NCBI GenBank assembly: GCA_937921865.1
Contig: CAKZWF010000064.1
Span: forward strand, 1-64,000
Length of the DNA: 64,000 nt
Direction of reading: 5' to 3'
Source: an uncultured Pseudomonadales bacterium
GTDB lineage: Bacteria > Pseudomonadota > Gammaproteobacteria > Pseudomonadales > Azotimanducaceae
Positions 12,620-61,398 of this stretch are shown here, in pieces. The translations under genes and the position numbers were made by a program. The notes under the pieces are model-generated. The model was given only the letters and a program-made list of their open reading frames with translations. It did no database searches and had not been told where the DNA came from. The number at the start of each line of letters is the position of its first letter. Position 1 is the stretch's first letter.

Positions 12620-12625
12620 TATAAT
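12620..12625 (+). promoter_or_regulatory. predicted -10 element of the yibN-secB promoter
   Basis: A perfect TATAAT with an upstream TG (extended -10) lies 37 bases before the yibN start in the gpmI-yibN divergent spacer. No strong -35 is visible at the standard distance, which is common for extended -10 promoters. Confidence 0.55.
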
Positions 12626-12661
12626 CGCGCGTTTTCCAATAGCGCCAGCACCTAAGTAGAT

Positions 12662-14075: not shown

Positions 14076-14501
14076 TTGCGAGCGGTTATCCGTTGGCTTC
14101 CATCCTGGCTCAGCCGGCCGGATCAGAGCCGACCGGCTGCGGACGTATACATGTCCCCGAAAACGTTAGCCGTCGCGAAAGGCGATCGTGGGGGTGACCG
14201 TTTGCACCTGCACCTGCACCTGCGGGCGGATCCGATCGATCAGCTGTCTGCGGCCAGAGATGTGCTCAAGCTGCAGAGCCACGATGTCGGGTTGAAATCT
14301 ACCAGCTGCAATCTGGTGCTGGCGTCTGAACTTTACTCGGTATCGCTGCTGGAACGCCTGCCGGTAACTGACGAAGAGCTGGTAGAGGCGGTGCGCTGGA
14401 GTATTCAGGAAAACATCGAGTTTCCGGTGGATACCGCCGCCGCGATAGAATTATCTTCTGGCGGGAAAGACGCCAGAGACTGCTACAGATCCAGCCGCTG
14501 A
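14076..14501 (+). pseudogene. truncated MshI-like pilus biogenesis protein
   Basis: The 141-codon frame resembles the N-terminal part of MSHA biogenesis protein Msh[13 protein letters not shown], then LVLASELYSVSLLERLPV and EELVEAVRWSIQENIEFPV. Full-length MshI is around 300 residues, so more than half is missing. The frame ends at a TGA inside the first unit of the tandem repeat starting at 14493. A TTG at 14076 is the likely start, seven bases after AGGAG (14064-14068); the ATG at 14071 is out of frame. A GCACCT hexamer repeated three times (14204-14221) encodes Leu-His repeats. No other msh genes are nearby, so a decayed relic is most likely; a short functional protein is not excluded. Confidence 0.55.
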
Positions 14502-14571
14502 AGGCTCTCTTTAGGTAGCCGCTGAAGGCTCTCTATAGTTAGCCGCTGAAGGCTCTCTATAGGTAGCCGCT
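14493..14571 (+). repeat. 24-bp tandem repeat, convergent-junction repeat family, locus 1
   Basis: Three near-identical 24-base units start at 14493, 14517 and 14541, followed by a partial unit from 14565. The core is AGCCGCTGAAGGCTCTCTA. Each core can form a small AGCC/GGCT hairpin. The array fills the gap between the mshI fragment and the convergent ntrC gene, supplies the mshI stop codon, and ends next to the ntrC stop. The same core recurs at 37204-37320 and, inverted, at 60646-60720. Confidence 0.85.
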
Positions 14572-14577
14572 TAGAGC

Positions 14578-16002
14578 TCAGCGCAGATCGTTTAGTTCGA
14601 GGTCGGCGATTTTGCGGGTGAGGGTGTTGCGTCCCCAGCCGAGCAGTTCGGCGGCATCTCGTTTGCGTCCGGCGGTTTTCTTCAGCGCAGCTCGGATCAT
14701 GATTTCTTCGAATTTTGGTTGAGCGATCTGCAGCAGCGGTGTGTTGAGACTTTCAGAAGCTCGCTCAGCCCAGTTTTCCAGCGCCCTTTCCCAGCTGACT
14801 TCGGAAGGTGACTCCTGTTCCGAGTCGCCACGGAGTTCAGGTGGCAGATCGCTGACATGGATCTCGCGGCCTGAGGCCATGACCGTCAGCCAGCGACAGG
14901 TGTTTTCCAGTTGTCGGACGTTGCCAGGCCAGCTGAGTGAACACATGAAGTCGATAGTGTCAGGGCGTAGAACTTTGTTTTCGCCGCCCAGTTCCTTGGC
15001 CGCCTGGTCAAGAAAATGCCGTGCCAGTAGTGGGATGTCACCGCGCCGCTCAGCCAGCATTGGCACGTGCACGCTGATGACATTGAGTCGGTGAAACAGA
15101 TCCTCCCTGAAGCTGCCTTCGCGAACGCAGATCTCCAGGTTCTGGTGGGTGGCGGCAATGATCCGTACATCCACTCGAATGGGCGAGTGACCACCCACCC
15201 GATAAAATTCTCCGTCAGCGAGCACCCGTAGTAAGCGGGTTTGTGTGTCTGGCGGCATGTCACCTATTTCGTCAAGGAACAGGGTTCCGCCGTTGGCCTG
15301 CTCGAAGCGCCCGACACGGCGGCTGTTGGCACCGGTAAACGCGCCTTTTTCGTGTCCGAACAGTTCCGACTCAACCAGCTCGCGAGGAATCGCTGCCATA
15401 TTCAGAGCAACGAAAGTACCGTCTGCGCGAGGACTGTGGCGATGCAGGGCTTTCGCAACCAGCTCTTTACCTGATCCTGATGCGCCGCGGATCAGTACTG
15501 TGACATTAGAGTTGGCCAGTCGACCGATTGCCCGGAAGACTTCCTGCATGGCAGGTGCCTGACCAATGATCTCCTGGTCGAGCATCGGTTCGAGCTTTCT
15601 AGGAATGGCGATCTCGTCATTGACCTTCATCGCCCGCTGAACGATGGCAACGGCTTCGTCGACATCGAACGGTTTGGGCAGGTATTCGAATGCTCCGCTC
15701 TGATAAGCATTAACAGCGCTGTCGAGATCAGAGTGGGCAGTCATCACGATGACCGGCAGATCAGGATAGGCATCGTGGACGTTGGTCACGAAGTCCAGGC
15801 CGTTCATCCCCGGCATTCTAACGTCGGTGATGATTGCGCTGGGGCGCTCGTCGTGCAGCAGGTGCATCGCATGATCGGCTGAGGCGAATGCGGTGATTGG
15901 AATGCCGGCCTGAGACATTGCCCGTTCCAGAACCCAGCGAATGGACTGATCGTCGTCGACTACCCAGACCTTATCGTTCGACATTGCTGGCGCTTCACTC
16001 AT
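14578..16002 (-). CDS. ntrC: nitrogen regulation response regulator NtrC
   Basis: NtrC is the sigma-54 activator of nitrogen-limitation genes. It has an N-terminal receiver domain with the acidic pocket VDDD and phosphoacceptor Asp in VITDVRMPGM. A central AAA+ domain follows with Walker A GASGSGKE and the sigma-54 contact loop EKGAFTGA. The C terminus is a Fis-type helix-turn-helix (GRKRDAAELLGWGRNTLTRKI). The ATG at 16002 gives 474 residues and overlaps the ntrB stop; a GTG at 16008 or an ATG at 15984 are alternatives. The gene ends at the tandem repeat. Confidence 0.96.
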   Translation of the reverse strand: MSEAPAMSNDKVWVVDDDQSIRWVLERAMSQAGIPITAFASADHAMHLLHDERPSAIITDVRMPGMNGLDFVTNVHDAYPDLPVIVMTAHSDLDSAVNAYQSGAFEYLPKPFDVDEAVAIVQRAMKVNDEIAIPRKLEPMLDQEIIGQAPAMQEVFRAIGRLANSNVTVLIRGASGSGKELVAKALHRHSPRADGTFVALNMAAIPRELVESELFGHEKGAFTGANSRRVGRFEQANGGTLFLDEIGDMPPDTQTRLLRVLADGEFYRVGGHSPIRVDVRIIAATHQNLEICVREGSFREDLFHRLNVISVHVPMLAERRGDIPLLARHFLDQAAKELGGENKVLRPDTIDFMCSLSWPGNVRQLENTCRWLTVMASGREIHVSDLPPELRGDSEQESPSEVSWERALENWAERASESLNTPLLQIAQPKFEEIMIRAALKKTAGRKRDAAELLGWGRNTLTRKIADLELNDLR

Positions 16003-17092
16003 CGACACGTGTCTCCAGGGGTAAGAAGATTGAGAAGCAGGTTTCGCCAGGCTCGCTGTCGCATTCGATCATGCCTCTGTGCTGGGTGATGATGTTCTGA
16101 GTGATCGCCAGGCCCAGCCCGGTGCCATCGGCACGCCCGGTGATCATGGGTAAAAAAACCTTGTCCTGCATGTCTTCCGGGATCCCGGGTCCGTTGTCGA
16201 TGATGTCGATCTGGGCAACCAGTCGGTGCAGGGTGTTGCCAATCGTGAACAGCCGAACAATCCGGGTGCGCAAAGTGATCGTAGGATTGACGGTCTGCGT
16301 TTCGACGAATACCTGAACTGCGTTGCGCATCATGTTCAGGGTTGCCTGAATCAGACGATCTTCGTCTGCATAAAGGTCCGGAACGCTGGGGTCGTAGTCC
16401 CGTTGAAATACGACCTGCCCGGGAAATTCGGCATAGATCAGACGGACCACATGTTCCAGAATCTGATGTACGTTCACCGCCTGAAGCTTTGGCTGCTGGT
16501 TTGGTCCAAGCATCGTGTCGACCAGATCTCTGAGTCGGTCCGCTTCCTGGATGATCACGTTCGTGTATTCCCGCAGCTCCGGAGATTCCTTGAATTCGCG
16601 ATCGAGCAGCTGTGCGGCACCCCGCAGGCCACCGAGCGGGTTTTTGATCTCGTGGGCAAGACCCCGGGTCAGTTCCTGGATAGTTTTCTGGGAAGACAGC
16701 ACCTGCTCTTCGCGATTGATCCGCAGCAAACGATTCATAGGCGTAAGTTCGATAATCGAAGCACCGCCGATTGTGTCGTAGCTGATGGTGAGATCCGCTT
16801 TGATTCGCTGACCGTCACGCATTCTGAACACCGCGCCACGGCGCGTCACCGGTTCTCTGGATTGGAACAGATCCGTCAGGTCGCCAAACTCGAGACTGCC
16901 ATCGTTCATCAGATAGTCGCGCAGCGAACCGCCAACGGCGCGTCTTTCGCTGACGCCAAAGAGATCCTCTGCGGCCTGATTCATAGCCCGAACCGTCTGC
17001 GTCGTATCGAGCACCACCACTGCGGTGGTCAGCAGATCGAACGCATTGGCCTTGTAATCAGGCACAGCCATATATTCCGTTGCCGGTTCCAT
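15995..17092 (-). CDS. ntrB: nitrogen regulation sensor histidine kinase NtrB
   Basis: NtrB phosphorylates or dephosphorylates NtrC under PII control. The 365-residue soluble protein has an N-terminal PAS domain (about 15-120), the phosphorylated His147 in GLAHEIKNPLGG, and a C-terminal ATPase domain with DNGPGIPEDMQDKVF and ADGTGLGLAI. It has no membrane segment, as expected. Its stop overlaps the ntrC start, so the two are translated together. An NtrC-box-like dyad about 150 bases upstream (17238-17252) suggests autoregulation. Confidence 0.97.
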   Translation of the reverse strand: MEPATEYMAVPDYKANAFDLLTTAVVVLDTTQTVRAMNQAAEDLFGVSERRAVGGSLRDYLMNDGSLEFGDLTDLFQSREPVTRRGAVFRMRDGQRIKADLTISYDTIGGASIIELTPMNRLLRINREEQVLSSQKTIQELTRGLAHEIKNPLGGLRGAAQLLDREFKESPELREYTNVIIQEADRLRDLVDTMLGPNQQPKLQAVNVHQILEHVVRLIYAEFPGQVVFQRDYDPSVPDLYADEDRLIQATLNMMRNAVQVFVETQTVNPTITLRTRIVRLFTIGNTLHRLVAQIDIIDNGPGIPEDMQDKVFLPMITGRADGTGLGLAITQNIITQHRGMIECDSEPGETCFSIFLPLETRVDE

Positions 17093-30264: not shown

Positions 30265-30280
30265 TTCTGCGCGTGTCCGC

Positions 30281-31612
30281 TTACAGGATGTAGCGGGACA
30301 GGTCCTGGTCCTTGGCAAGTTCAGCCAGGTGCTCATCGACGTAGCTGGCGTCCACCGTGACGGCCGTGGTCTGGTCACCGGCGTGGTACGACACTTCTTC
30401 GAGCAGACGCTCCATAACGGTATGCAACCGGCGGGCACCAATGTTTTCGGTGCCTTCATTGACCTGCCAGGCCAGTTCGGCAATGCGGCTCAGACCATCT
30501 TCGCTGAAACTGATATCCACACCCTCGGTTGCCAGCAGCGCCTGATACTGTTCCGTCAGAGAGGCTCTGGGCTCGACCAGAATGCGCTTGAAGTCATCCG
30601 GGCTCAATGCCGCCAGTTCGACCCGAATGGGCAGTCGACCCTGGAGTTCGGGGATCAGATCGGAGGGTTTGGCCAGATGAAACGCCCCTGATGCAATAAA
30701 CAGGATGTGATCGGTGCGCACTGGCCCGTATTTCGTAGAGATTGTGCAACCTTCGATCAACGGCAACAGGTCCCGCTGAACGCCTTCCCTGGATACGTCG
30801 GCACCGACACCCTCACTGCGTTTGGCGACCTTGTCGAGTTCATCGAGAAAGACGATGCCCATCTGTTCGACGGCATCTATGGCTTTGGCTTTCAGCTCAT
30901 CTTCGTTGACCAGCCGGGCGGCTTCTTCCTCGCGGACTTTCTTCAGAGCATCTTTTACTTTCAGCCTGCTCGACTGTTTTTTCCCGCCGCCGAGATTGCT
31001 GAACATGTTCTGCAACTGGTTGGTAATCTCCTCCATGCCCGGGGGAGCCATGATTTCCACCCCAACCTGGGCGGCCGCAACTTCGATTTCGACTTCTTTG
31101 TCGTCCAGCTCGCCTTCGCGCAGTTTTTTGCGGAAGATCTGTCGGGTAGCGGAGCCTTCGCTGCCGCCGCTTTCCGTCGCTGTACCAGTGCTCCTCGGCT
31201 CCGGCAGCAGCGCATCGAGAATACGTTCTTCAGCCGCATCGTCAGCGTGGTGTTGAATCGCCGCTATCTGGATGTCGCGCTGCATTTTGATGGCGGCATC
31301 AGTTAGATCGCGGACGATAGATTCAACGTCCCGCCCGACGTAGCCGACTTCAGTGAATTTGGTGGCTTCAATCTTGATGAACGGCGCGCCGGCGAGTTTT
31401 GCAAGACGCCGGGCAATCTCGGTTTTACCAACCCCGGTAGGGCCGATCATCAGAATGTTCTTCGGGGTTATCTCGCTGCGCAGCTCTTCATCGAGCTGCA
31501 TGCGCCGCCAGCGGTTGCGTAACGCGATCGCTACAGCGCGCTTGGCGTCGTCCTGGCCAATGATGTGACGGTCCAGCTCGTGGACAATTTCTCGGGGCAT
31601 CATGTCGGTCAT
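30281..31612 (-). CDS. hslU: HslU ATPase subunit of the HslUV protease
   Basis: HslU is the AAA+ unfoldase that feeds substrates to HslV. The 443-residue protein has [22 protein letters not shown], Walker [17 protein letters not shown], Walker [11 protein letters not shown], a large I-domain insertion around residues 110-240 and the C-terminal LSRYIL tail that docks into HslV. It overlaps hslV by four bases. Confidence 0.97.
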
Positions 31613-32151
31613 GTCAGGTCCAGAACCTCAATGGTTCGCTGCTGGTTGGTGTACACACAGATATCCCCGGCGATGGCCAGGGCCTTCTCAACGCTGGTCG
31701 CGGCATCAAGGTCTGTGTTTTCTGCCAGGGCACGGGCGGCAGCCTGGGCATAGGGCCCCCCCGAGCCGATCGCCAGCACGCCGGATTCCGGTTCGATCAC
31801 ATCGCCGGTGCCGCTGATCAGCAGTGAGGCAGTGGCGTCTGCGACCAGGAGCATGGCTTCCAGACGCCGCAGGGCGCGATCTGATCGCCAGTCTTTGGCG
31901 AGCTCAACCGCTGCCCGGGTGAGATTGCCATGATATTTTTCCAGCGCGCCTTCGAAGCGCTCAAAAAGGGTGAAAGCGTCAGCGGTGCCACCAGCAAAGC
32001 CGGCCAGCACCTTGTCGCCGTAGAGGCGGCGTACTTTGCGGGCGTTGCCCTTCATGATGGTATCGCCAAGCGTTACCTGACCGTCACCGCCAATGGCGAC
32101 CTGGGCGTCCCCGCGGACGCAGACAATGGTGGTGCCGTGAAACTGCTCCAT
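31609..32151 (-). CDS. hslV: HslV peptidase subunit of the HslUV protease
   Basis: HslV is the proteasome-like threonine peptidase. The 180-residue protein begins [14 protein letters not shown]; removal of the short propeptide would expose the catalytic Thr. [26 protein letters not shown] and the [11 protein letters not shown] segment are typical. The gene precedes hslU in the usual order. Confidence 0.97.
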
Positions 32152-32230
32152 GGAATTCCTGTGAATTAGACCTTCAGGTGATAGTGGGGGCGGTGGCTGT
32201 GGTTTTCAACGCAACCGGCGGTGCGGCCAA

Positions 32231-32830
32231 TCAACCCCTGTTAATCTGCATGGGTGACAGATTGTTTTCCCGCAGTGCGGTGACAGCCCGGTTGAAGTCT
32301 CGTTTGAGGTTAAAAGGTCCGACGGTGACCCGGTACCAACGCTGATCTTTCACAGTCATGACAGACACGCTGGCAGGGAGATCCTGCTTAGCAAGACTAT
32401 CCTGGAGATCGGCTGCCTGGGCAAACGATTTGAAAGATGCTGCCTGGAGCAGATAGGTCTTGTTCGGATCACCGTTGGGGCCTTCGAATTCCACCTCATA
32501 GGCTGACTGGTCGATCTCGACTTCACTCTCGCTGAGCATTGTGTCGAATTTGAATATCAGCTCCTGCTCGGCAGACTGCTCGGTGTTCCCGGTTGGTCGA
32601 GGTGATTGTTCGAACAGCTGCGCTACCTGGGGTAACAGCAGGACTGCGGCCCCACCCAGAATCAACCCGACAGAAAAACTCGGTGCATTGAAGATGATGC
32701 CGCTGACCGCCTGCTGGCGTTTGGCTGATCCTTTTGGGTCCTTGCGGGACCGGGTTTTTCTGGGCGCCGGCCGGCCTGCGGGCTTTTTGCGGGCGGTGGC
32801 GTTGGTTCGGGTGGCGTAGTCACGTTTCAT
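32231..32830 (-). CDS. SPOR domain-containing (FtsN-like) protein
   Basis: The 199-residue protein has a basic N-terminal cytoplasmic stretch, one membrane segment (about residues 52-70), a linker and a C-terminal SPOR domain (KTYLLQAASFKSFAQAADLQ, WYRVTVGPFNLKRDFNRAV). SPOR domains bind denuded peptidoglycan at the division septum. A bitopic FtsN-like division protein is inferred. In P. aeruginosa argS lies between priA and this gene; here it is missing. Confidence 0.88.
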   Translation of the reverse strand: MKRDYATRTNATARKKPAGRPAPRKTRSRKDPKGSAKRQQAVSGIIFNAPSFSVGLILGGAAVLLLPQVAQLFEQSPRPTGNTEQSAEQELIFKFDTMLSESEVEIDQSAYEVEFEGPNGDPNKTYLLQAASFKSFAQAADLQDSLAKQDLPASVSVMTVKDQRWYRVTVGPFNLKRDFNRAVTALRENNLSPMQINRG

Positions 32831-32933
32831 CGCGCAGATGATAAGGAACCTGGCTGACTATGCCACCCCTGAATAACCGGTTTTATGGTCGGTCCGTGCA
32901 GCCGCGAAAATCAGGCGTCAGGCGATTGTGGGC

Positions 32934-35111
32934 TCAGAAGGTATCGTAAGGATCTATATCGATGGCGAAACGCACATTGGCGGGGAGGGGTGGCAGCTTC
33001 TTCAGATTGCGGACACCGGCATGCAGAATCTGCCGATTTCTGGCGACAATCAGCAGCTGAAATCGCCACCGGTCAGCGATGCGTTCGATGATCGCCGGCG
33101 CCGGACCATAGACTTCCAGGCTATCCGGCAGCAGAGCTCGAGCCTGATTCAGCCACTGGTTTGCGACGCTTGCATTGCTGGACTCGCTGCGCAGCAGCGC
33201 AATGGGTCGAAACGGCGGCAGCTCCTGAGCCTGCCGCGCTTCCAGCTCGCGTGCCGCGAACCCTTCATAACCCTGCTCCAGCAGAGCCTTGAGCAGCGGA
33301 TTGTCCGGTTGATAGGTCTGGATATACACCTCGCCGCGCCGCTCTGCTCGACCCGCCCGGCCGGCGACCTGAATGATGAGCTGTGCCGTTCGCTCAGGGG
33401 CGCGAAAGTCAGGGCTGAGAAAACCGCTGTCAGCGTTCACCACAGCGACCAGCGTGACATTCGGAAAGTGGTGGCCCTTGGCGAGCATCTGAGTGCCGAT
33501 GAGAATTGCCGGATGGCCTTCATGAATGGCCTCAAGCTGGGCTTCCAGGCGAGCCCGGCTGCGGACGGTATCCCGATCGATGCGATAGACCGGCAGATCT
33601 GGAAAGTGCCTGCGCAGTGCTGCTTCAGCTCTCTGGGTGCCCTGGCCAACCGGGATCAGGCCAACTTTTCCGCATTCCGGACAGGATTCTGTCAGTGGGT
33701 CGCGGCGCCCGCAGTGATGGCAGATCAGCCCGGCGGGAGACCTGTGCATGGTCATTGGGCGATCGCACCCAGGACACAGGGCTCGCCAATTACATTGACC
33801 GCATAGCAGCGAGGGCGCAAAACCGCGTCGATTCAGAAATACCAGTACCTGGCCGCCGGCCTTTAAATGGCGACCGGTGACCCTCAACAGGTCGTCGGCC
33901 AGGCCACTGTCGAGTTTACGTCCGCGTAAATCAAGCAGATGGAACCCGGGCACTGCCGCTCCACCGGCCCGTTCGGTCAGCCTGAGCTGCTGGTAGCGCC
34001 CGGTGGCGGCATTGTGAAGGCTTTCGAACGATGGCGTTGCACTCCCCAGCAGCAGCGGAATTTTCAATTGCTGGGCTATTTTTACTGCGACATCTCGCGC
34101 CGAGTAGCGCAGCCCGTCCTGCTGCTTGAACGAAGCATCGTGTTCTTCATCGACAACGATCAGCCCGAGATCCGCAAACGGGGTCAGTACTGCTGACCGG
34201 GTGCCGATCAGGATCTGCAGTTCGCCTCGTGCAGCCCGCAGCCAGACCTGCAGTCTGGCGCGGTCGGTCATTGCTGAGTGGATCACAGCGGCACTGCCGA
34301 AGCGCTGTTCGAAGCGAGCGACGGTTTGTGGAGTCAGCGCGATTTCTGGAACTAGGACCAGTACCTGCCTGCCGTTACCAAGCACCTGTTCGATCAGGCG
34401 CAGATAGATCTCGGTCTTGCCGCTGCCGGTGATTCCGTTGAGGAGTGTTGGCGCGAACTGCTGGAGTCTGCTGACCAGTTCAACCAGAACATGCTGCTGT
34501 TCGCTGTTCAGTTCCAGGCGCTCGCCCGGTCGCTCCAGTGATGGGGGCTTACCATGGTGTGCTGTTCGGCGCACCAGGCCTTTGGCCTGGAGAGCTTTCA
34601 GGACTGTGCGCGCATACCCTTCAGAGCGCAGCAGTGAAGCGGAGGCCAGGCCACCCAGGGCAACCAGCCGTTGGTAGAGCACCTGCTGTTTAGGTGCCCG
34701 AGCAAGACTGGCAGTTTCGGCATCGACGTCGGTGCCGGTGAGTTGCCAGTGTTCTTCGGTGGTGGCTGGGAGCTTTTCAACGCTGCGCGCAGCACCCGGC
34801 AGCAGCGTCGCCAGCACTTCGCCAAGAGGATGTTGATAATAGTCAGCCAGCCAGTTCGCCAGCTCCCACAGGTGCTCACCAAAAAAATTCTCCTGATCGA
34901 TGACCCGCAGCAGCGGCTTGAGCTGCTTATGGGCATCCTCGGGATTGAGTGCCACACAGATACCGATTAAACGTCTCCCGGAGAAGGGCACCTGTACCCT
35001 GGCGCCAACGGCCGGGGTTGGTTCGGAAGCTGGAATCAGATAGTCAAACAATCGATCCAGGGGCACCGGCACCGCAACCCGGGCTACTCTTATGGGCGCT
35101 GGGTCGCTCAC
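32934..35111 (-). CDS. priA: primosomal replication protein N' / helicase PriA
   Basis: PriA restarts stalled replication forks. The 725-residue protein has an N-terminal DNA-binding domain (VARVAVPVPLDRLFDYLIP). Helicase motifs include Walker A GITGSGKTEIYLRL and DEEH in VVDEEHDASFKQ. A zinc-binding Cys cluster (CGQCNWRALCPGC, CHHCGRRDPLTESCPECG) and GTQMLAKGHHFPNVTL also match the family. It starts 24 bases from the divergent rpmE promoter. Confidence 0.97.
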   Translation of the reverse strand: MSDPAPIRVARVAVPVPLDRLFDYLIPASEPTPAVGARVQVPFSGRRLIGICVALNPEDAHKQLKPLLRVIDQENFFGEHLWELANWLADYYQHPLGEVLATLLPGAARSVEKLPATTEEHWQLTGTDVDAETASLARAPKQQVLYQRLVALGGLASASLLRSEGYARTVLKALQAKGLVRRTAHHGKPPSLERPGERLELNSEQQHVLVELVSRLQQFAPTLLNGITGSGKTEIYLRLIEQVLGNGRQVLVLVPEIALTPQTVARFEQRFGSAAVIHSAMTDRARLQVWLRAARGELQILIGTRSAVLTPFADLGLIVVDEEHDASFKQQDGLRYSARDVAVKIAQQLKIPLLLGSATPSFESLHNAATGRYQQLRLTERAGGAAVPGFHLLDLRGRKLDSGLADDLLRVTGRHLKAGGQVLVFLNRRGFAPSLLCGQCNWRALCPGCDRPMTMHRSPAGLICHHCGRRDPLTESCPECGKVGLIPVGQGTQRAEAALRRHFPDLPVYRIDRDTVRSRARLEAQLEAIHEGHPAILIGTQMLAKGHHFPNVTLVAVVNADSGFLSPDFRAPERTAQLIIQVAGRAGRAERRGEVYIQTYQPDNPLLKALLEQGYEGFAARELEARQAQELPPFRPIALLRSESSNASVANQWLNQARALLPDSLEVYGPAPAIIERIADRWRFQLLIVARNRQILHAGVRNLKKLPPLPANVRFAIDIDPYDTF

Positions 35112-35134
35112 CGGCGGTGCAGCCGAACAGTCAG

Positions 35135-35163
35135 TTGATATCCGGCTGTCTTGTGACTAGAAT
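35135..35163 (+). promoter_or_regulatory. predicted sigma-70 promoter of rpmE
   Basis: TTGATA (35135-35140) and TAGAAT (35158-35163) are separated by exactly 17 bases, close to the consensus -35 and -10. The -10 lies about 70 bases before the rpmE start. Confidence 0.75.
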
Positions 35164-35234
35164 GCGCGGCCTTCGAATCCTGACCAGACGGCGTGACGGC
35201 GACCGGCCGAAGCGCAAAATTAGGCGAAAAAATC

Positions 35235-35450
35235 ATGAAAGCAGACATTCATCCAGAGTATCGCGAGATCAAGGCAACCTGTAGCTGCGGGAATGTCGTT
35301 GAGACCCGCTCAACGCTTGGTGAGGATATTCACCTCGACGTCTGCTCCGCCTGCCATCCGTTCTATACCGGTAAGCAGAAAGTTCTCGATGCCGGTGGTC
35401 GGGTAGAGCGGTTCCGCAAGCGTTTCGGCAATCGCGCTGCCAGCAAGTAA
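35235..35450 (+). CDS. rpmE: 50S ribosomal protein L31, zinc-binding type
   Basis: The 71-residue protein has the four zinc-binding cysteines at positions 16, 18, 37 and 40 (CSC and CSAC), followed by [20 protein letters not shown]. This is the zinc-containing form replaced by a Cys-free paralogue under zinc limitation in some bacteria. The ATG at 35235 gives the family length. Confidence 0.98.
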
Positions 35451-35790
35451 ACCAGAACTGGCGCGAGTTGCGTATCCCGGAGCCACCATTGCCGGCTCCC
35501 CGGTGACATTCTCACCTGATTCAATGCACACGGCGGGTTAACGCCCGCCGCCTGTACCCGGTGACTTTCATGGTTGCCGCTGTCATTTCCCTTCAGTCTC
35601 TATTCATCTGAACCCCTGTACAGTTCGCGGTCTAAACTTTGGCGAATCTGGCATTATCATGAGCCGGGGATGGCGCAGCGAAAACTGCGAATCTATTGCG
35701 GCGAATCTATAGCAGTGAAGATCGTGCTGCTCAGATAAGGCAGAGCAGAAACTTAAGACGAGAAGCATCAAAGAAGTAGAGACACAGCCG
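35451..35790. other. rpmE-M48 protease spacer with a terminator-like hairpin
   Basis: A GC-rich hairpin CGGCGGG-TTAACG-CCCGCCG lies at 35531-35550, about 80 bases after rpmE, but it has no T-run. The rest contains no gene on either strand. It should include the promoter of the M48 protease gene, for which I see no clear consensus. Confidence 0.5.
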
Positions 35791-37206
35791 ATGGACGTGC
35801 GTAAACCCATGAAGCTTATCAATACCCTGTTGAGCCTGCTGCTGCTGGCCAGCCTCAGCGGCGTCAGTAACGCAGCTGGTCCGGGAGCCAAGTTCTATCA
35901 GGAACTGCTGGAACAGGATGGTCTGTATCCTGACGAAGCCTGGCAGGCCTATATCAATGAGATCGGCCAGCGGCTGCTGGCGGTCACGCCTGATGCAAAA
36001 GACGAGTATCACTTCTATCTGCTGGACAGTACGTCGGTCAACGCGATGGCGTTTCCGGATGCCTATATCTTCGTCAATCGCGGGCTGATCGCGTACCTGC
36101 GCTCCGAGGACGAGTTGGCGGCTGTTATCGGCCATGAAATCGGCCACGTGGTAGGCGCTCACGCCAAACGCAGCAATACCACGGCAAGAATAGGCAACAT
36201 TGCCGGTTTCATAGGCTCCATTCTGACCGGCACCGGGGCAATTGCTGACCTGTCCAATAGCGCCACCTCCACTCTGGTGACGGGCTATCGACGCGAATTT
36301 GAACTCGAAGCGGATGAACTCGGTGGCGAATACCTGGCCAAAGCCGGATACAACCCGCTGGCAATCATCGATACGATCCACGTGCTCAAAGACCACTCGC
36401 TGTTTTCTAAAAATGTCCTGAAGCAGCCGACGGTTTATCACGGATTGTTTTCGACCCACCCGAAAAACGATAAACGTCTCTACGAAGCAGTGCAGAAATC
36501 TCAGCATCTGTTCCCCGAAGAGCTGCAGGAGCCTGTCGGGGACTTCTGGAGCATGGTTGACGGACTGGTCTATGGTTCGGAAGCAACCGCCGGACTGATC
36601 AAGGGCACTACCTACTACCACGGCAGTTTGCGTGTGGTGGTTGCGTTCCCGAGCGATTGGGACGTGGTTAATAGAACCACAGAAGTGGTGGGCCGACCCA
36701 TCACCGGTGCCAGCGATGCATCGATTGCGGTGGCTCGCTCAGCGCCGCCTGAAGCTGCCCAGAGTCCCGAAGAGTACCTGCGCTTCACCCTGAAGCGGGA
36801 TGATCTTGAGAACGGCGAAGCAATTGAAGTGAATGGATTCACAGGTTATACCGCAGATATAGCAACGACGGACAATGCCGTTGCCGCTCGAAAAATCGCC
36901 GTAGTGTTCAAAGATGCCAATGCCTATGTATTTACTGGCGAACTGCAGGTGCCTGGTGATCTGAAGGCGTTTGAGCAGACCTGGTCCGAAACTGTGGGTT
37001 CGTTCCGTGCGATGACGGCTGATGACCTTAAGGTCGCCAGCAGTCAGCGTATTGCTGTGTTGGTTGCGCAACCGTCTGATACCTTTGCCAGTCTGGCTCG
37101 CAAGTCTTCACTGAAAAGATATCCTGAAGAAACCCTGCGCGTACTCAATGGCATGCACCCGGTCGGGGAGCCTCGCGCCGGCGACTACATCAAGATTGTT
37201 CAGTAG
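35791..37206 (+). CDS. M48 family metalloprotease (BepA/LoiP-like)
   Basis: The 471-residue protein has a signal peptide (about residues 7-29) and a zinc metallopeptidase domain with HEIGH at 115-119. A further ligand Glu lies in EFELEADELGGEYLAKAG. The C-terminal half is not TPR-like but mixed alpha/beta, and ends in a short LysM-like segment (LVAQPSDTFASLARK onward to AGDYIKIVQ). Periplasmic M48 proteases assist outer-membrane protein quality control; this role is inferred. The TAG stop begins the tandem repeat array. Confidence 0.9.
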   Translation: MDVRKPMKLINTLLSLLLLASLSGVSNAAGPGAKFYQELLEQDGLYPDEAWQAYINEIGQRLLAVTPDAKDEYHFYLLDSTSVNAMAFPDAYIFVNRGLIAYLRSEDELAAVIGHEIGHVVGAHAKRSNTTARIGNIAGFIGSILTGTGAIADLSNSATSTLVTGYRREFELEADELGGEYLAKAGYNPLAIIDTIHVLKDHSLFSKNVLKQPTVYHGLFSTHPKNDKRLYEAVQKSQHLFPEELQEPVGDFWSMVDGLVYGSEATAGLIKGTTYYHGSLRVVVAFPSDWDVVNRTTEVVGRPITGASDASIAVARSAPPEAAQSPEEYLRFTLKRDDLENGEAIEVNGFTGYTADIATTDNAVAARKIAVVFKDANAYVFTGELQVPGDLKAFEQTWSETVGSFRAMTADDLKVASSQRIAVLVAQPSDTFASLARKSSLKRYPEETLRVLNGMHPVGEPRAGDYIKIVQ

Positions 37207-37320
37207 CCGCAGCTGTTAGTCGCCGCAGCTGTTAGTTGCCGCGGCTGTTAGTCGCCGCGGGCGCTCTAGACGCTGCAGGCTCTTTTAGACGCCACAGCTT
37301 CTCTAGACGCCACAGGCGTT
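37204..37320 (+). repeat. degenerate tandem repeat, convergent-junction family, locus 2
   Basis: Seven units of 13-19 bases each start with TAG, at 37204, 37217, 37233, 37249, 37267, 37286 and 37304. The array fills the space from the M48 stop codon (the first TAG) to the PBP1a stop codon on the other strand. The unit TAGACGCTGCAGGCTCT at 37267 matches the core of the other two loci. Neighbouring units can pair into GC-rich hairpins (AGCCGC with GCGGCT). Confidence 0.8.
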
Positions 37321-39895
37321 AAAAAATATCTACCGCTTTGATCGGATCTTCGGTCTGGTCGGGGTTGCGTTCGCTGGCCGGTTGCTGCCGGGGCGTATGT
37401 TCGGCGAGAAAGAACTCGAAAATTGCATCTTTGTCGCGAACGCCCGCCATTACGCCGGTTTTCGGATCAATCTTCATAGTCACCACGCCGTCCGGCTGGT
37501 TCGGAAAGGATTCCCGGGCGCCAGCCAGGGCCGTTGTCATATAGTCAATCCAGATCGGCAGCGGTGTGGTGGAGCCGTACTCTCTGCTCCCGAGCGCCTG
37601 ATGATTCGGGAATCCAACCCAGACGGTGGCAACCAGATCCGGATTGTAGCCATTGAACCAGGTATCTGCGGCATCGTTGGTGGTGCCAGTCTTGCCTGCC
37701 AGGTCGCTGCGCTCGAGGCTGCGCGCGCGCCGGCCGGTACCACGGCGAATCACATCCTGCAGCATGCTGTGCATGATGTAGGCATTGCGTTCGTCGATGA
37801 CCCTGGGGGCAGGAATCAATACCGGCGGTTGCGTCCCGATCGTCTGTGAAGATTCGTCAACGGGCGTGTCGCTGGCAAACAGTTCTTCAAGATTAGCGGG
37901 TTCGCCGGTCAGCAGATCGGTGCCTTCAGTCACGCTCTGGCAGGCGTCGTCGCAGACCACCGGATAATTTGGTTTGAACACCAGTTCGCCGTCGATGTCG
38001 CGGACTTCGCTGATGATGTTGGGCTCAACCAGGTAGCCGCCGTTGGCGAGCACCGCATAGGCGGTCGCCATGTCTATCGGAGTCACCGCCATTGTTCCAC
38101 CGCCGATCGCAAGCTGGGTGTTGCGTGGAAAAGTGCTGGTGTTGAAACCGAAGCGGGCAACGTGATCCATCACATTGCCTGCGCCCACTTTCAGCAGGAC
38201 CCGCATGGATACCAGATTGATGGAACGATAAAGGGCTTCCCGTAACCGCGTTGGGCCATTGTATTGATTGTTGTCATTATCCGGTCTGTAGTCGGATTCT
38301 AGGTTCTGATCAGCGAATACCAGCGGTGCATCCATGAAGATACTGGCAGGCGTGATGCCACTGGCCAGTGCCGCAGAGTAGACAAAAGGTTTGAAGCCTG
38401 ACCCTGGCTGGCGGGCAGCCTGCAGTGCGTGATTGTACTGGTTCAGACCGAAGTCGAAGCCGCCAACCATGGCCTGCACCGCACCATTCTGCGGATCCAG
38501 TGAGACCAGTGCGCCTTGAATTTCAGGTAGCTGGGCAAGACGCCAGGTCTGCTCCAGCACTTCCGGAGCATATTCGGATGTGGGCGTTTCCGCTTGAGTA
38601 GCCGCGGTTGCGCTGGGCTGGAGTCCCAGATCCTGGAGTCGGATCACGTCGCCGATCTGCAGTACTTCACTAACGCTGCGCACAGCAGGACCGCGGGTAT
38701 CGACGTCAACGAACGCTCGAGCCCAGCGGACCGCATCCAGATCAAGCGTTGCGCTGCTGCCGTTGGCAAGCCTTACGCTGGCGGTGAGTTCGTCAACGCT
38801 GACGACTACGCCCGGTAGCAATCCGGCTCGCGCCTGTCGTTGGGCAAGCTGTTCCTGGAGCTGGTCTTCATCGATGCCCTGATCCGAGCTGATGAGATCA
38901 GCCACGTTGTCCTCAGGTCCTCGATAGCCGTGGCGACGGTCGTAATTCATCAATCCGCTGCGTAAAGCTTCGCTGGCAGCCCGCTGCCTCTCCGAGTCCA
39001 GAGTTGTAATCACCTCGTAGCCGCCTGAATACAGATCCGGGAACTTGCCCAGGAGCTGCTGGCGAACCCACTCGGCTGGATAGGGCGCTGGAACGTCCAG
39101 TTCACGATCAAAAACCTGGGCGGTGATTGGCGAAGCAATTGCGGCCTGATAGCTGTCGAGGTTGATGGATCCCTGGTCCAGCATTCGCCGGAGCACTACG
39201 TTGCGCCGCCGCAGTGCCCGTTCTGGCCCATTGATCGGATTACCTGCCTCCGGCGCATTGGGGACGCCGGCGAGCATCGCTAACTGCGCCAGATTAAGCT
39301 CCTTGAGCCGTTTGCCGTAGTAGGTGAGGGCAGCCGCCTGGGCACCGTAAGCGCGTTTTCCAAATGGCACCACATTGATATACAGCTCGAGAATTTCGTC
39401 TTTGCTGAGCTCTCTTTCGATTTTCAGCGCGAGCAACATCTCTTTGAATTTCCTTAAGAATTTTCGTTCCAGAGAAAAAGAGATGTTGCGTGCCAGCTGC
39501 ATCGTGATGGTGCTGGCGCCAGACCCCAGGCCTTCGCCGGTAAGCAAATCGGCTATGAGACCGAAAGTGTCATTGGTCAGGGAGATGAAGTCGATTCCCT
39601 GATGTTCGTAGAAGCGTTTGTCTTCGGTATCGAGCAGGCCGCGTATGAAATACTCGGGTACTTCGTCGAGGCTGATTGGAATGAGACGTCGTTCGCCAAA
39701 TTCAGCGATCAGCTTCTGATCAGCCGTATACACTCTTAATGGCGTCTCCAGTTTTACCTGACGATACGTCTCGGCTTTTGGCACTTGAGGGTCCAAATAC
39801 AGGTAGACGCCTGCAAGACTGAGCACTGCGGCACACAAACCGGCGAGTGCCAGACACATAATGGCTACGGTTACGCGTCGGGACCTCGGTGTCAT
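37319..39895 (-). CDS. mrcA: penicillin-binding protein 1A (bifunctional transglycosylase/transpeptidase)
   Basis: PBP1a polymerises and cross-links peptidoglycan. The 858-residue protein has an N-terminal membrane anchor. The GT51 motif LLDTEDKRFYEHQGID carries the catalytic Glu, and GASTITMQLARN follows. An OB-like insertion lies near residues 320-420. The transpeptidase Ser is in ARQPGSGFKPF, and KTG is in AGKTGTTNDAADTWF. It is divergent from pilM, as in Pseudomonas. The stop lies at the edge of a tandem repeat. Confidence 0.96.
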   Translation of the reverse strand: MTPRSRRVTVAIMCLALAGLCAAVLSLAGVYLYLDPQVPKAETYRQVKLETPLRVYTADQKLIAEFGERRLIPISLDEVPEYFIRGLLDTEDKRFYEHQGIDFISLTNDTFGLIADLLTGEGLGSGASTITMQLARNISFSLERKFLRKFKEMLLALKIERELSKDEILELYINVVPFGKRAYGAQAAALTYYGKRLKELNLAQLAMLAGVPNAPEAGNPINGPERALRRRNVVLRRMLDQGSINLDSYQAAIASPITAQVFDRELDVPAPYPAEWVRQQLLGKFPDLYSGGYEVITTLDSERQRAASEALRSGLMNYDRRHGYRGPEDNVADLISSDQGIDEDQLQEQLAQRQARAGLLPGVVVSVDELTASVRLANGSSATLDLDAVRWARAFVDVDTRGPAVRSVSEVLQIGDVIRLQDLGLQPSATAATQAETPTSEYAPEVLEQTWRLAQLPEIQGALVSLDPQNGAVQAMVGGFDFGLNQYNHALQAARQPGSGFKPFVYSAALASGITPASIFMDAPLVFADQNLESDYRPDNDNNQYNGPTRLREALYRSINLVSMRVLLKVGAGNVMDHVARFGFNTSTFPRNTQLAIGGGTMAVTPIDMATAYAVLANGGYLVEPNIISEVRDIDGELVFKPNYPVVCDDACQSVTEGTDLLTGEPANLEELFASDTPVDESSQTIGTQPPVLIPAPRVIDERNAYIMHSMLQDVIRRGTGRRARSLERSDLAGKTGTTNDAADTWFNGYNPDLVATVWVGFPNHQALGSREYGSTTPLPIWIDYMTTALAGARESFPNQPDGVVTMKIDPKTGVMAGVRDKDAIFEFFLAEHTPRQQPASERNPDQTEDPIKAVDIF

Positions 39896-39976
39896 GATCG
39901 CGGCAGAGATAAAAGGATCGGATTGCGCATTACTTAAACCTAGTATTTAATGTTATGTCGCATAAATAGGACGTAA

Positions 39977-41067
<1,091 letters not shown>

Positions 41068-41068
<1 letters not shown>

Positions 41069-41649
41069 TGGCACACATTAACCTCCTCCCGTGGCGCGAC
41101 TGGGAACGGGAACGTAAGAAGAAAGAATTTCTCACTAATCTGGTGGGTGTGCTGGTGTTTGGTGGTGTGTTGCTTTTTGCAGCCGGCTGGCAGCTTGACA
41201 GCAACCTCGAGTATCAGAACGCTCGCAACGATTTCCTGCAGAAAGAAATCAAAACGCTGGATAAGCGAATTGCAGAGATTGTGAATCTGCAGAAAGAGAA
41301 GAAAGAGCTGCTGGCACGGATGGATGTTATTCAGCAGCTGCAGGGTAACCGTCCCATCATTGTGCATGTCTTCGATCAGCTGGTGCGCACCCTGTCGAAA
41401 GGGCTGCACTACCGCAATCTGGAAATGTCGGGCGAGGAATTGACCATCGCCGGTACGGCAGAATCTAACAACCGGATTTCCGGTCTGATGCGCAACCTTG
41501 ACGATTCAGACTGGTTCGCCCAGCCGAATCTGCGCACCATCAAAGAAGATCCTACCAACGCTGAGTATGGGTCGCAGGCCAGTAATTTTGATCTGACCTT
41601 TACCCGGGTCAATCCGCTGAAAGGCAATGGCGACGCGGGGGAGGACTAG
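41068..41649 (+). CDS. pilN: type IV pilus assembly protein PilN
   Basis: The 193-residue protein starts MAHINLLPWRDWERERKKKEF, where INLLPWR is the PilM-binding motif. One membrane segment (about 24-42) and a periplasmic coiled coil plus ferredoxin-like domain follow. It forms the inner-membrane platform with PilO. Confidence 0.96.
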
Positions 41650-41652
41650 GTA

Positions 41653-42270
41653 ATGGCTTTACAGGACACACTCGCGCAGCTGCAGGCTTTTGATCTTGGT
41701 GATCTGGATGTAAACAACGTCGGTTCCTGGCCGAACCCAGTCAAGATCATCATTATGGTCGTTTTGTTTCTGGCGGTTTTAGGGGGTGGTTATTATTTCT
41801 ACCTGACCGACAAGCTGGTTGTGCTGGAACGCGCTGAACTCAAAGAAGTTGATCTGCGTAAAGACTACGAAGCGAAGAGCGAAAAGGCTGCAAACCTCGA
41901 AGCCTATCGGGCTCAGAAAGCTGAAATGGAAGCAACTTTCGGCGCGCTGTTGCGCCAGCTGCCCAGTGACACTGAAGTCCCCGGTCTGCTCGACGATATC
42001 ACCCGCACTGCACTCGACAACGATCTGACTATTGAAAGCATCGAGCTGCAGAATGAGAAAAACACCGAGTTCTATGTCGAGTTGCCAATCGACATCGTCG
42101 TTGAAGGCAACTACCACAAGATTGGTTCTTTTGTCAGCGGGGTCGCTAACCTGTCGCGAATTGTCACTCTGCATGACTTCATTATTTCGCCTCAGGACGG
42201 CAATGTTGAAAACCTCAGGATGACCATCCTGGCCAAAACCTACCGCTATCTGGAAGAAGAGGACGGGTGA
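41653..42270 (+). CDS. pilO: type IV pilus assembly protein PilO
   Basis: The 205-residue protein has a cytoplasmic N terminus, one membrane segment (about 30-52, IIIMVVLFLAVLGGGYYF), a coiled coil rich in Glu, Lys and Ala, and a C-terminal ferredoxin-like domain (FYVELPIDIVVEGNYHKIGSF). It pairs with PilN in the alignment complex. Confidence 0.96.
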   Translation: MALQDTLAQLQAFDLGDLDVNNVGSWPNPVKIIIMVVLFLAVLGGGYYFYLTDKLVVLERAELKEVDLRKDYEAKSEKAANLEAYRAQKAEMEATFGALLRQLPSDTEVPGLLDDITRTALDNDLTIESIELQNEKNTEFYVELPIDIVVEGNYHKIGSFVSGVANLSRIVTLHDFIISPQDGNVENLRMTILAKTYRYLEEEDG

Positions 42271-44956: not shown

Positions 44957-44995
44957 CAGGTGCCGGGACACCCGGCCCATCCATCCTATAAACTA

Positions 44996-45023
44996 CGCGG
45001 CGCCAATAGGCGCCGCGTTTTTT
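44996..45023 (+). terminator. Rho-independent terminator between pilQ and aroK
   Basis: CGCGGCGCC-AATA-GGCGCCGCG is a perfect 9-bp GC-rich stem followed by six T. The T-run ends directly at the aroK start codon, so the hairpin occupies the place of the aroK ribosome-binding site. Confidence 0.93.
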
Positions 45024-58855: not shown

Positions 58856-59371
58856 GTGAAAGGAATTCCCAGATTGTTAATCGGCCTGCTGGCGGCGGTT
58901 ATGTCGATGAGTCCAGCGCTTGCGGACGAACCTGAGGCTGTGCTCGGATACTGGGCGACGGAAGATTCAATTCTTGAAGTTGCCACCGCCGGTGAGAGTT
59001 TGAGCATGCGGGTCGTTGCGCTGGAAAATCCGGTTTACACCGAAGGTGAAGAACATGGTCCGCCGGGGGCGGTGCGGGTGGATGTAAACAATCCGGACGC
59101 AGCACTTCGCGATCGACCGATCCTCGGGCTCGAATTGCTCAGTGACTATGCGTTCAGCAAAGACCGCTGGGGTGGGAAAATTTATGATCCGCAGTCCGGC
59201 AAGCTCTACTCTTCGACCATGTGGTTAGAGGATGGATCGCTGCAGATGCGTGGCTATATCGGGGTGTCCTTTCTGGGTAGAACTCAGACCTTTGCACCGG
59301 TAGCCGACTGCGGTCCGAAAATTGTGGCTCTGCTTCGAGCGACCAGCTTCGCCCAAGCCAGCTGCGATTGA
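58856..59371 (+). CDS. DUF2147 domain-containing protein
   Basis: The 171-residue protein starts at a GTG seven bases after a strong AGGAGG. It has a signal peptide ending in SPALA and then the DUF2147 pattern: VLGYWATEDSILEV, RPILGLELLSDYAF, GGKIYDPQSGKLYSSTMWLED and LQMRGYIGVSFLGRTQTF. Family members are periplasmic beta-barrel-like proteins of unknown function. The stop overlaps the start of the next gene. Confidence 0.88.
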   Translation: MKGIPRLLIGLLAAVMSMSPALADEPEAVLGYWATEDSILEVATAGESLSMRVVALENPVYTEGEEHGPPGAVRVDVNNPDAALRDRPILGLELLSDYAFSKDRWGGKIYDPQSGKLYSSTMWLEDGSLQMRGYIGVSFLGRTQTFAPVADCGPKIVALLRATSFAQASCD

Positions 59372-60663
59372 TGCGACATCTGTTAACGCTGCTGAAAGTG
59401 CTGAGCCTGACTGCAGTGGTTGCTGCACTCTGGGCTGGCCTCGTGGTGACGGCGACCCTGCAGGGTTGGTTCCGCCCGGCAATAGCGCCAGCTGGGGACA
59501 GCGGCGCTTTTGCAAGCGCAGCGATTGCGATGCTCGATACGCAGAATGTTGGCAATGTTGCTTATCAGCTGCTGGAAGATGGCAAAGTTGTCAGTGAGCA
59601 TTATCTGTCGATCGGCACGCCGGTTGATGCGGACACCTTGTTTCAGGTGGCTTCGCTCAGCAAGTGGATCACCGCCTGGGGCGTTATGACACTGGTGGAC
59701 TCCGGCCGACTCGATCTCGACAAGCCGGTGGACGACTACCTGGAGCGCTGGCAGCTGCCGTTGGGTAGTCATGACAATCAACTGGTAACACCCCGGCTCC
59801 TGCTCAGTCATCGTGCCGGTCTGATTGACGGACTTGGCTACGCGGGATATCTGCCGGGAGAGCCTGTGCAGCCGTTGACCGAGTCTTTGACCCAGGCTGC
59901 AGACGCATCACCCGGCGCCGGTGGACGCACCGTCGTTGGCATTGAACCCGGAACCACGTTCGCATACTCAGGTGGCGGGTATACGTTGTTGCAGCTGCTG
60001 ATTGAAGAAGTCTCCGGCCAGTCTTTTTCCGACTATATGACAGCAACGGTGTTTGTACCGCTCGGGATGAATCGCAGCACGTTCACGCCTGATCTCGACC
60101 AGCTGGAAAATGTTGCCAGCTTCTATGATCTAGATGGTAGCGAAGCCATTCACTACCGGTTCACCTCACTGGCGGCTACCTCGCTGTACACAACGGCTGC
60201 CGATCTGACCCGGTTGCTGCAGGCACATTTACCCGGACCTCAAGGCGAGACTATTGGTCGCGGAGTGCTCGCTCCTGAGACGCTGGCGCTGATGCGTGAA
60301 CCTCATGCCAGTCAATTTGGTGCAGACATCTGGGGACTTGGAACAATGCTGTTTGCAGCGGACGTGGACGGCAACTGGGTGATTGGCCACGACGGCAGCA
60401 ACGAACCGGCGATCAATACTTCAGCCAGAATTAATCCAGCAACCGGTGATGGCATCGTGGTGCTGGAAACCGGGTCACAGCTGCTGGCCTCGAACCTGGC
60501 CGGAGAGTGGGTGTTCTGGCTGACCGGTGTGCCTGATCTGATCATGATTACCATTGCCAGTGAGGGCATGATCAACACAATACTCGTAGGTTGGCTTGTT
60601 TTGCTGGTGCTCGCCGCAGCAATCTGGCTGCTGCGCCGGCGTAGGAGAGCCCTCAGCGTCTAA
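59371..60663 (+). CDS. serine hydrolase, beta-lactamase family (class C-like)
   Basis: The 430-residue protein has an N-terminal hydrophobic segment and the nucleophile motif SLSK at residues 95-98. The tyrosine motif lies in FAYSGGGYTLLQLLIEEVSG, and an HDGSNEP segment replaces the KTG-type third motif. Two C-terminal hydrophobic helices suggest membrane attachment. Class C-like serine hydrolases act on peptides, esters or wall fragments; beta-lactam hydrolysis is not implied. The ATG overlaps the DUF2147 stop. The last codons lie within a repeat unit. Confidence 0.88.
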   Translation: MRHLLTLLKVLSLTAVVAALWAGLVVTATLQGWFRPAIAPAGDSGAFASAAIAMLDTQNVGNVAYQLLEDGKVVSEHYLSIGTPVDADTLFQVASLSKWITAWGVMTLVDSGRLDLDKPVDDYLERWQLPLGSHDNQLVTPRLLLSHRAGLIDGLGYAGYLPGEPVQPLTESLTQAADASPGAGGRTVVGIEPGTTFAYSGGGYTLLQLLIEEVSGQSFSDYMTATVFVPLGMNRSTFTPDLDQLENVASFYDLDGSEAIHYRFTSLAATSLYTTAADLTRLLQAHLPGPQGETIGRGVLAPETLALMREPHASQFGADIWGLGTMLFAADVDGNWVIGHDGSNEPAINTSARINPATGDGIVVLETGSQLLASNLAGEWVFWLTGVPDLIMITIASEGMINTILVGWLVLLVLAAAIWLLRRRRRALSV

Positions 60664-60720
60664 CAAAGAGCCCTCAGCGGCTAACTAAGAGCCCTCAGCG
60701 GCTTTTATAGAGCCTCAGCT
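60646..60720 (-). repeat. 21-bp tandem repeat, convergent-junction family, locus 3
   Basis: Units of 21 bases start at 60646, 60667 and 60688, with a partial unit at 60709. The plus-strand core AGAGCCCTCAGCGGCT is the inverse of the locus 1 core. Read on the minus strand the units are TTAGmCGCTGAGGGCTCT. The first unit supplies the stop of the beta-lactamase-like gene, and the last runs into the stop of the metallo-beta-lactamase gene. Confidence 0.82.
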
Positions 60721-61398
60721 GCCCATTATGGCTTTCCAGGTCTCGAGGTCGGGCACGCGCAGATAGGTGTTTTGCTCTTTGGTCTCACCCATTGTCGCAT
60801 TAGGCACGTGTCCGTAGTTGTGACCAGGCAGCAGCAGGGTTTCTTCCGGCAGTTCGGACAGCTTCTGCAGGCTGCGGTACATGTCTTCAGAATTCGAACC
60901 AGGCAGGTCGACTCGGCCGCAGCCGTTAATGAACAGGGTGTCGCCGGAGACCAGTGTGTTTTTTATGCGAAAGCATTGCGACCCGGGTGTGTGGCCGGGC
61001 GTGTGAAGAAATTCGACTTCTACGTCACCCACCGACAGCTTGTCGCCGGATTCGACTCGGATGATGTCGGTTTCAGAAACCCCGGTGACTTTCTTCAGGC
61101 CGTCAGCTTCTTCTTTGTGGGTATAGACTCTGACCGGGTGTGTTTCCAGCAGCTCAGCAATGCCCTCAACTGTATGCCCGCCGTACGCGCCGCCGCAATG
61201 ATCCGGATGATAGTGGGTGATCAGTGCACCGCTGAGAATGTATTCGCGCTCGGCAAGATGTTTCAGCAGTCCATCCACATCCCAGGCCGGGTCAACGACA
61301 ACTACCTCGCGCGTTGTCCTTGAGCCGACAAGGTAGGTGAAGTTCTGCATCGGACCGATCTCAATCTGTTCGATGATGAGTTCCTGCTCGTTGTTCAC
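60715..61398 (-). CDS. metallo-beta-lactamase fold hydrolase
   Basis: The 227-residue protein has the zinc motif THYHPDHCGG, followed by EFLHTPGHTPGSQCFRI, LVSGDTLFINGCGR and LLPGHNYG, which supply the remaining ligands. It resembles glyoxalase II and persulfide dioxygenase-like hydrolases. The N terminus (EQIEIGPMQNFTYLVGS) is typical. Which thioester or persulfide it acts on cannot be decided here. It overlaps the upstream metallophosphoesterase gene by four bases. Confidence 0.9.
   Translation of the reverse strand: MNNEQELIIEQIEIGPMQNFTYLVGSRTTREVVVVDPAWDVDGLLKHLAEREYILSGALITHYHPDHCGGAYGGHTVEGIAELLETHPVRVYTHKEEADGLKKVTGVSETDIIRVESGDKLSVGDVEVEFLHTPGHTPGSQCFRIKNTLVSGDTLFINGCGRVDLPGSNSEDMYRSLQKLSELPEETLLLPGHNYGHVPNATMGETKEQNTYLRVPDLETWKAIMGS

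Follow-up and report, generated by a model that had tools for sequence, protein, structure and literature searches.

A dispersed family of short tandem repeats with a near-constant 11-nt core at convergent gene junctions and in frame within genes of Pseudomonadales

The window analyzed here, a 64,000-nucleotide stretch of a contig (CAKZWF010000064.1) from an uncultured Pseudomonadales bacterium, contains a short tandem array (37204..37318, plus strand) lodged between two convergent genes. Upstream lies a gene for an M48 family peptidase (35791..37206, plus strand; Pfam PF01435, E 4.2e-31), the stop codon of which is also the first TAG of the array (37204-37206). Facing it is the gene for a penicillin-binding protein with transglycosylase, transpeptidase and OB domains (37319..39895, minus strand; PF00912, PF00905, PF17092), which terminates at a minus-strand TAA at 37319-37321 and to which the name mrcA was assigned in this analysis. 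The array comprises seven units of 13, 16, 16, 18, 19, 18 and 15 nt, each beginning with TAG, and takes up all of the sequence between the two stops (112 bp following the TAG), just as the first-pass annotation of this DNA had described.

Two further arrays are present in the window. At 14493..14571 (plus strand), 3.3 copies of the 24-nt unit AGCCGCTGAAGGCTCTCTATAGGT separate a 141-aa ORF without a Pfam match (14076..14501, plus strand) from the gene for an NtrC-type sigma-54 response regulator (14578..16008, minus strand; PF00158, PF00072, PF02954). The ORF ends in the first unit of the array, its stop being the TGA within GCTGA at 14499-14501, and the TGA stop of the NtrC-type gene sits in a degenerate inverted core. 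At 60646..60719, ~3.6 copies of a 21-nt unit with the core on the minus strand hold the stops of both neighbors; the last codons of a serine beta-lactamase-fold protein gene (59368..60663, plus strand; PF00144) are inside the array, and the TGA stop (60717-60715) of a metallo-beta-lactamase-fold protein gene (60715..61398, minus strand; PF00753) falls in its last unit. The earlier description had assigned to the three arrays a shared core, unit lengths that differ by locus (13-19, 24 and 21 nt) and positions exactly between convergent stop codons. The lengths are as described. All three arrays are real and belong to one dispersed family, but the units at 37204 are mostly of a CGCCGC variant, with the core proposed at first pass present without mismatch in one of the seven (at 37267). 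All three likewise lie at convergent junctions; however, only the 37204 array fits between the stops, and the other two overlap the gene ends and supply the stops. A search of the window with TAGMCGCTGMRGGCTCT at up to 3 mismatches returned 10 matches against 1.25 expected, the maximum of 100 shuffles being 5.

The mrcA/M48 peptidase pair is kept in 9 of 14 relatives, where the convergent gene following mrcA was matched to the M48 peptidase by its end, by eye; the gap in these nine measures 5-77 bp and holds no tandem array. The other five relatives have a different arrangement after mrcA. Both window proteins at this junction end as those of the relatives do (...VDIF and ...IKIVQ, by eye), and, on comparison of these sequences, the array at the mrcA junction is an addition. 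At one relative's locus (L083), a REP-like palindrome containing ...CGGCTGAAGCCGCTCC... is seen by eye just after mrcA (~12600-12660), where the window has its array. Synteny at ntrC is broken, with a trmL-like gene following ntrC in several relatives (by eye), and the locus was set aside as a second empty site for that reason.

The genome that the window comes from is a 4.27 Mb draft in 103 contigs, 89.7% complete. At up to 2 mismatches, GCCGCTGAAGGCTCT has 117 matches in this genome, compared to 13 for the reversed pattern. Among the 52 matches with 0-1 mismatch, a hand count placed 50 in tandem arrays and two alone; many lone places are found among the 2-mismatch matches listed. The sister pattern CGCCGCAGGCKCTTTA, searched at 3 mismatches, gave 253 matches against 113 for the control; these 253 include A-type units, and 16 B-variant stretches were picked by eye among the matches listed. 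Unit length across the family is ~16-26 nt, often 18 or 23/24, and the units have in common the core GCTGARGGCTC, with GCTCARGGCTG and CGCCGCNGGC as sister variants. By eye, the 18-nt and the 23/24-nt unit types recur at separate loci and in several genera. Local expansion of a dispersed seed, as suggested at first pass, is therefore only part of the story: lone seeds are rare, and whole unit types reappear from place to place. A putative tiny hairpin, GCY-NNN-GGC, is common to the core variants (by eye).

To describe where the arrays lie, tandem arrays with units matching variants A, B or C were classified by their surroundings, with genes called by our own codon-score script and not by a standard gene finder. 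The 34 arrays of the own genome divide into 12 at convergent, 7 at co-directional and 5 at divergent junctions, 5 in coding sequence and 5 at contig edges. Four relatives (G050, G021, G004 and G043) contributed 40 arrays from fetched loci, four loci being omitted (two of G022 and one each of G011 and G060): 18 coding, 6 convergent, 6 co-directional, 1 divergent and 9 at edges. Overall, 23 of the 74 classified arrays are inside genes. Some of the divergent calls are gene ends; the single such array of the relatives (L173) is an in-frame GyrA tail, and an own-genome one (L119, at 4330) lies, by eye, in frame in a YccA-like ORF. The background, drawn from the same stretches and hence from stretches chosen for arrays, consisted of 400 junctions (68 convergent, 262 co-directional, 70 divergent). 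Measured against its 68/400, the convergent share of the own junction arrays (12/24) gave a one-sided p of 2e-4 by junction number and 4e-7 by intergenic length, and variants A and C alone gave 7/11 (p 7e-4). Convergent junctions are favored by the own-genome arrays, yet they are not exclusive. Confinement to such junctions, as first claimed, holds for the three window arrays but not for the genome, in which arrays also occupy genes and co-directional and divergent gaps; matches within genes, named beforehand as a result that would refute the claim, were indeed returned.

Within genes, the arrays are in frame. The period is divisible by 3 in 23/23 coding arrays versus 18/37 junction arrays. 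The coding value is in part a necessity, given that one frame per strand of the 18-nt unit carries a stop; arrays retained in genes preserve the reading frame. Of the six reading frames of the 18-nt unit TCCGCTGARGGCTCTTTA, four contain no stop, and in translated genes the unit appears mostly as AEGSL (sense) or KEPSA (antisense), and once as PLKAPD, the units running in sense in some genes and in antisense in others. Hosts identified by Pfam are RNase E, GyrA and trigger factor (the latter two in the C-terminal tail), an E2 acyltransferase with the array between the lipoyl and E3-binding domains, and a glycosyltransferase with the array between the family-4 and group-1 domains. Pfam also identified as hosts an MFS transporter and T2SS protein B, both with arrays of B-variant units, a zinc-ribbon/DUF3426 protein and a CheA-like Hpt kinase. 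Judging by composition and domain borders, the arrays would be positioned outside the folded parts of their host proteins. The GCTCARGGCTG variant, which carries two linked changes, forms arrays at L113, L160 and L166; these three, the ones classified, are all junction arrays, which fits the stop codon that this variant has in the EPSA frame.

These in-frame arrays bear on the role raised at first pass, namely that the repeats function as bidirectional terminators, transcript-collision insulators or stop-codon clusters at convergent gene ends. Such a role would account for the convergent enrichment and for the stop codons of flanking genes inside the units at two window loci, and folding of the 37204 array is stronger than that of shuffled sequence on either strand (z -3.4 and -3.9). 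For the arrays at 14490 and 60640, however, folding is no stronger than in shuffles (z -0.17 to -1.27). A scan of 30000-45000 detected no terminator-like site (hairpin plus T run) within 37204-37320. Long genes are read through such units, in frame and in both orientations, as in RNase E, in trigger factor and in the tail of GyrA, and four of the six frames of TCCGCTGARGGCTCTTTA are open. Furthermore, the array at L124 precedes a separate hairpin and T run (by eye), and the nine relatives with the conserved gene pair make do without any array at the mrcA junction. A functional role of this kind is thus very unlikely, and terminator or insulator activity was rejected as the main role on grounds of location, folding and presence in genes. 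The 37204 array may nevertheless exert a local effect, because that array folds well.

Variation was compared across 88 antisense-coding, 38 sense-coding and 96 junction units with up to 4 mismatches in 16. The GCTGA-GGCTC positions are 95-100% constant over coding and junction units, and the flanks vary. The purine R of GCTGARGGCTC is A in 37-47% and G in 48-63%; this residue (position 7 of the 16-mer core) is the sole free core site, is synonymous in both favored frames and is mixed in junction arrays too. Within arrays, with units cut by period and not by core, and with 16 of 53 A-type arrays skipped for long or irregular periods, 33 of the remaining 37 arrays were informative; in 30 of these, units differ less from one another in the core than outside it (mean difference 0.040 versus 0.143). 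By class, this holds for 11/13 junction, 13/13 coding and 6/7 edge arrays, and an anchored version of the comparison gave 39/47 (junction 16/17, coding 17/20, edge 6/10). Contig-edge arrays on their own display no significant core effect, whether period-cut (6/7) or anchored (6/10).

In the EPSA frame, the serine codon has A as its third base in 97% of units, compared to 13-21% TCA among the serine codons of host ORFs, and in the AEGS frame the alanine third base is T and the glycine third base is C in 100%. Hence, from these codon and unit comparisons, it seems to be at the nucleotide level that the core is constrained, in junction arrays as in coding ones. The low core variation may partly reflect ascertainment, because core matches guided the choice of loci and a limit of 4 mismatches applied to the units used for the constant positions and third bases. 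The fixed third bases weigh on another explanation, that the repeats are selected as flexible protein linkers of which the junction arrays are escaped copies. The AEGS and EPSA peptides, which are hydrophilic and placed in tails and linkers, would suit it; the near fixation of synonymous third bases would not, nor would the 19/37 junction arrays whose period is not divisible by 3, or the arrays that variant C forms despite a stop in the EPSA frame. We consider selection as linkers extremely improbable.

Among relatives, the family is patchily distributed. At up to 1 mismatch, CGCTGARGGCTCTNTA has matches in 52/96 genomes, the own included, and at least 10 matches in 15 of 60 genomes of the same family, led by G004 (169), G021 (96) and the own genome (73). 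The three congeners of the own genome have 3, 2 and 0; low counts of this kind mean little because the control gives 0-3 per genome. Across 390 genomes of the order, the TTTA form was matched in 110, with at least 10 matches in 13; these 13 fall in four families (f1, f8, f41 and f44), and the reversed control gave 0-2. A-type arrays are also present in the public records SMWK01000224.1 (L031) and QIDL01000499.1 (L053). In 19 low-copy genomes, the matches are small arrays or singles, with flanks that look different by eye. A universal template copy in all genomes of the family was rejected for the GCTGARGGCTC core, G005, G010, G012 and G028, among others, being without a 1-mismatch match. In a few relatives (L132, L195; G035, G039), the core is joined to a hairpin, GCGAGGGGCAAGCCCCTCGC, and the composite in G039 forms BIME-like 45-nt tandem units. 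A composite of core and hairpin GAGGGGCAAGCCCCTCGC as the unit of the own genome was rejected, that hairpin being found in 6/96 genomes and not in the own.

G021 and G050, which belong to one genus, both have an array where a gene like that for ribosomal protein L33 ends (by eye); some arrays are therefore inherited. For the zinc-ribbon/DUF3426 gene of the own genome, no core match was found within the gene at any of the 13 relatives' loci at which the ORF was found; the other 16 of the 29 loci gave no zinc-ribbon ORF, those of congeners G001 and G002 included. One of the 13 (L288) encodes an APAAE-type protein repeat without the core. At the loci compared, no array was observed in the course of insertion, nor was it possible to define a target duplication.

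A model for the family emerges from these observations. We think it probable, with appreciable doubt, that the arrays are a dispersed short-tandem-repeat family spreading through the genomes of the order like a selfish element, with a core constrained at the nucleotide level. A new array would be founded when a whole unit, or several, is copied to another site, with slippage or recombination lengthening and shortening it afterwards. Copies that land in genes or promoters would mostly be lost, and the survivors would gather at convergent 3' ends and in loose protein segments; a putative sequence-specific factor would read the core and keep it constant. Insertions may be tolerated in convergent gaps because promoters and coding sequence are absent there, and protein tails and linkers would be the next best places. 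At 37204, the array would have landed between the M48 peptidase and mrcA stops with neither protein end altered.

Slippage can expand tandem arrays in any genome, and the family might instead consist of neutral minisatellites, in which shared ancestry or transfer of a few arrays, followed by slippage and ectopic recombination, suffices with no reader of the core. The long, uniform edge arrays without a significant core effect are consistent with such neutrality, as is the placement of arrays where harm is least. Neutrality leaves unexplained the lower core variation in 30/33 informative arrays and the recurrence of the same core in many genera, with at least 10 copies in four families, and we judge it rather unlikely. 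Lower still in our estimation, and properly called unlikely, is that the cell uses the core as a recognition sequence, such as a DNA-uptake or a chromosome-organizing site, and that the repeats accumulate through this use. Uptake sequences sit in proteins in favored reading frames, and the two favored frames here, AEGS and EPSA, resemble that placement; the 11-nt core is also near constant in junctions and on both coding strands, with one free purine. Uptake and chromosome-organizing sites are, however, mostly dispersed singles; lone copies are rare here (2/52 at 0-1 mismatch in the own genome), and congeners with 0-3 matches imply that the core has no genus-wide use.

Returning to selfish spread, a narrower proposal can be made, which we offer tentatively and as possible rather than probable. 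The arrays may be a minimal mobile element, a ~18-24-nt minisatellite unit with most frames open that is copied head-to-tail by a dedicated host or element factor recognizing GCTGARGGCTC and that colonizes junctions and protein linkers across the order. No mobilizing gene for the arrays was found in a Y1/RAYT survey of 96 genomes and 20 loci. Y1/RAYT-type transposases are encoded in 13/15 high-copy versus 24/45 other genomes of the family (Fisher p 0.03, relatedness ignored) and are absent from two high-copy drafts. No GCTGARGGCTCT array was found beside the Y1 gene at any of 20 Y1 loci from 14 genomes; at L329, three CGCCGC-type matches lie 0.2-0.3 kb from a Y1 gene, and at L328 a variant array lies 1.7 kb away. 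With a weak association and no linkage, a RAYT/Y1 transposase as the mover is not supported.

No description of the GCTGARGGCTC family was found in searches of the open-licence PubMed Central literature, in which the core strings matched no paper. The arrays display what is general to dispersed short tandem repeats: the same core, in many arrays at many places, in numbers that vary between relatives. REP and BIME sequences are short dispersed palindromes common downstream of genes, and a RAYT gene is flanked by REPs. The arrays resemble these in being short dispersed repeats common downstream of genes; they differ in that the REP unit is palindromic, whereas the three window array regions hold no inverted pair of at least 12 nt, and in that RAYT-flanking copies were not seen here, the hairpin composite of a few relatives aside.

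The STAR elements of Staphylococcus aureus are interspersed direct repeats of a 14-nt consensus with spacers that expand and contract and are uneven among species, and their dispersal mechanism is given as unknown (PMC3532100). STAR motifs lie between genes and are separated by 40 bp or more of recurring sequence (PMC3532100), whereas the units here are 16-26 nt and head-to-tail, many arrays are in frame inside genes, and the cores bear no sequence relation by eye. TAACTGA repeats of Beggiatoaceae likewise occur in numerous dispersed arrays with a patchy taxonomic spread; some of these arrays overlap stop codons and others lie in ORFs, mostly at protein ends, but the repeats are heptamers situated mostly just upstream of start codons (PMC4679880). 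In the arrays described here, by contrast, 3' ends and gene interiors dominate, and a conserved core is accompanied by a drifting remainder. Rickettsia palindromic elements are comparable as in-frame insertions in unstructured parts of housekeeping proteins that are thought to be selfish (PMC2996958); they are stand-alone palindromic insertions, unlike the arrays here, which are tandem and have no 12-nt inverted repeat. PARCEL repeats are also tandem, code for protein, are punctate in their distribution and have a feature at the DNA level in addition to the protein one, yet they have 75-nt units, encoding a 25-residue domain with dyad symmetry, and the word "intergenic" is absent from the text that describes them (PMC2996958). 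None of STAR, TAACTGA, PARCEL or the Rickettsia palindromic elements matches the arrays in full anatomy.

Dispersed short repeats without a known mover, STAR and TAACTGA among others, pose an old open question. Here, the range of 0-73 matches within one genus, together with a less variable core, means that the mover or core reader can be looked for through near relatives and through binding. The arrays have consequences for their hosts as well, extending GyrA, trigger factor, RNase E and other proteins, and could be mistaken for regulatory junction elements. They also break assemblies at contig ends, as four own contigs begin or end in an A-type array (the starts of C18, C35 and C44 and the end of C83). 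At the end of C83 (L125) and at the start of C18 (L118), an Hpt/CheA-like kinase ORF is cut short within the same repeat; the two pieces probably come from a single gene that an unassembled array has divided. Genes similar by eye to this kinase carry arrays elsewhere in the gene in G050 (L142) and G004 (L164).
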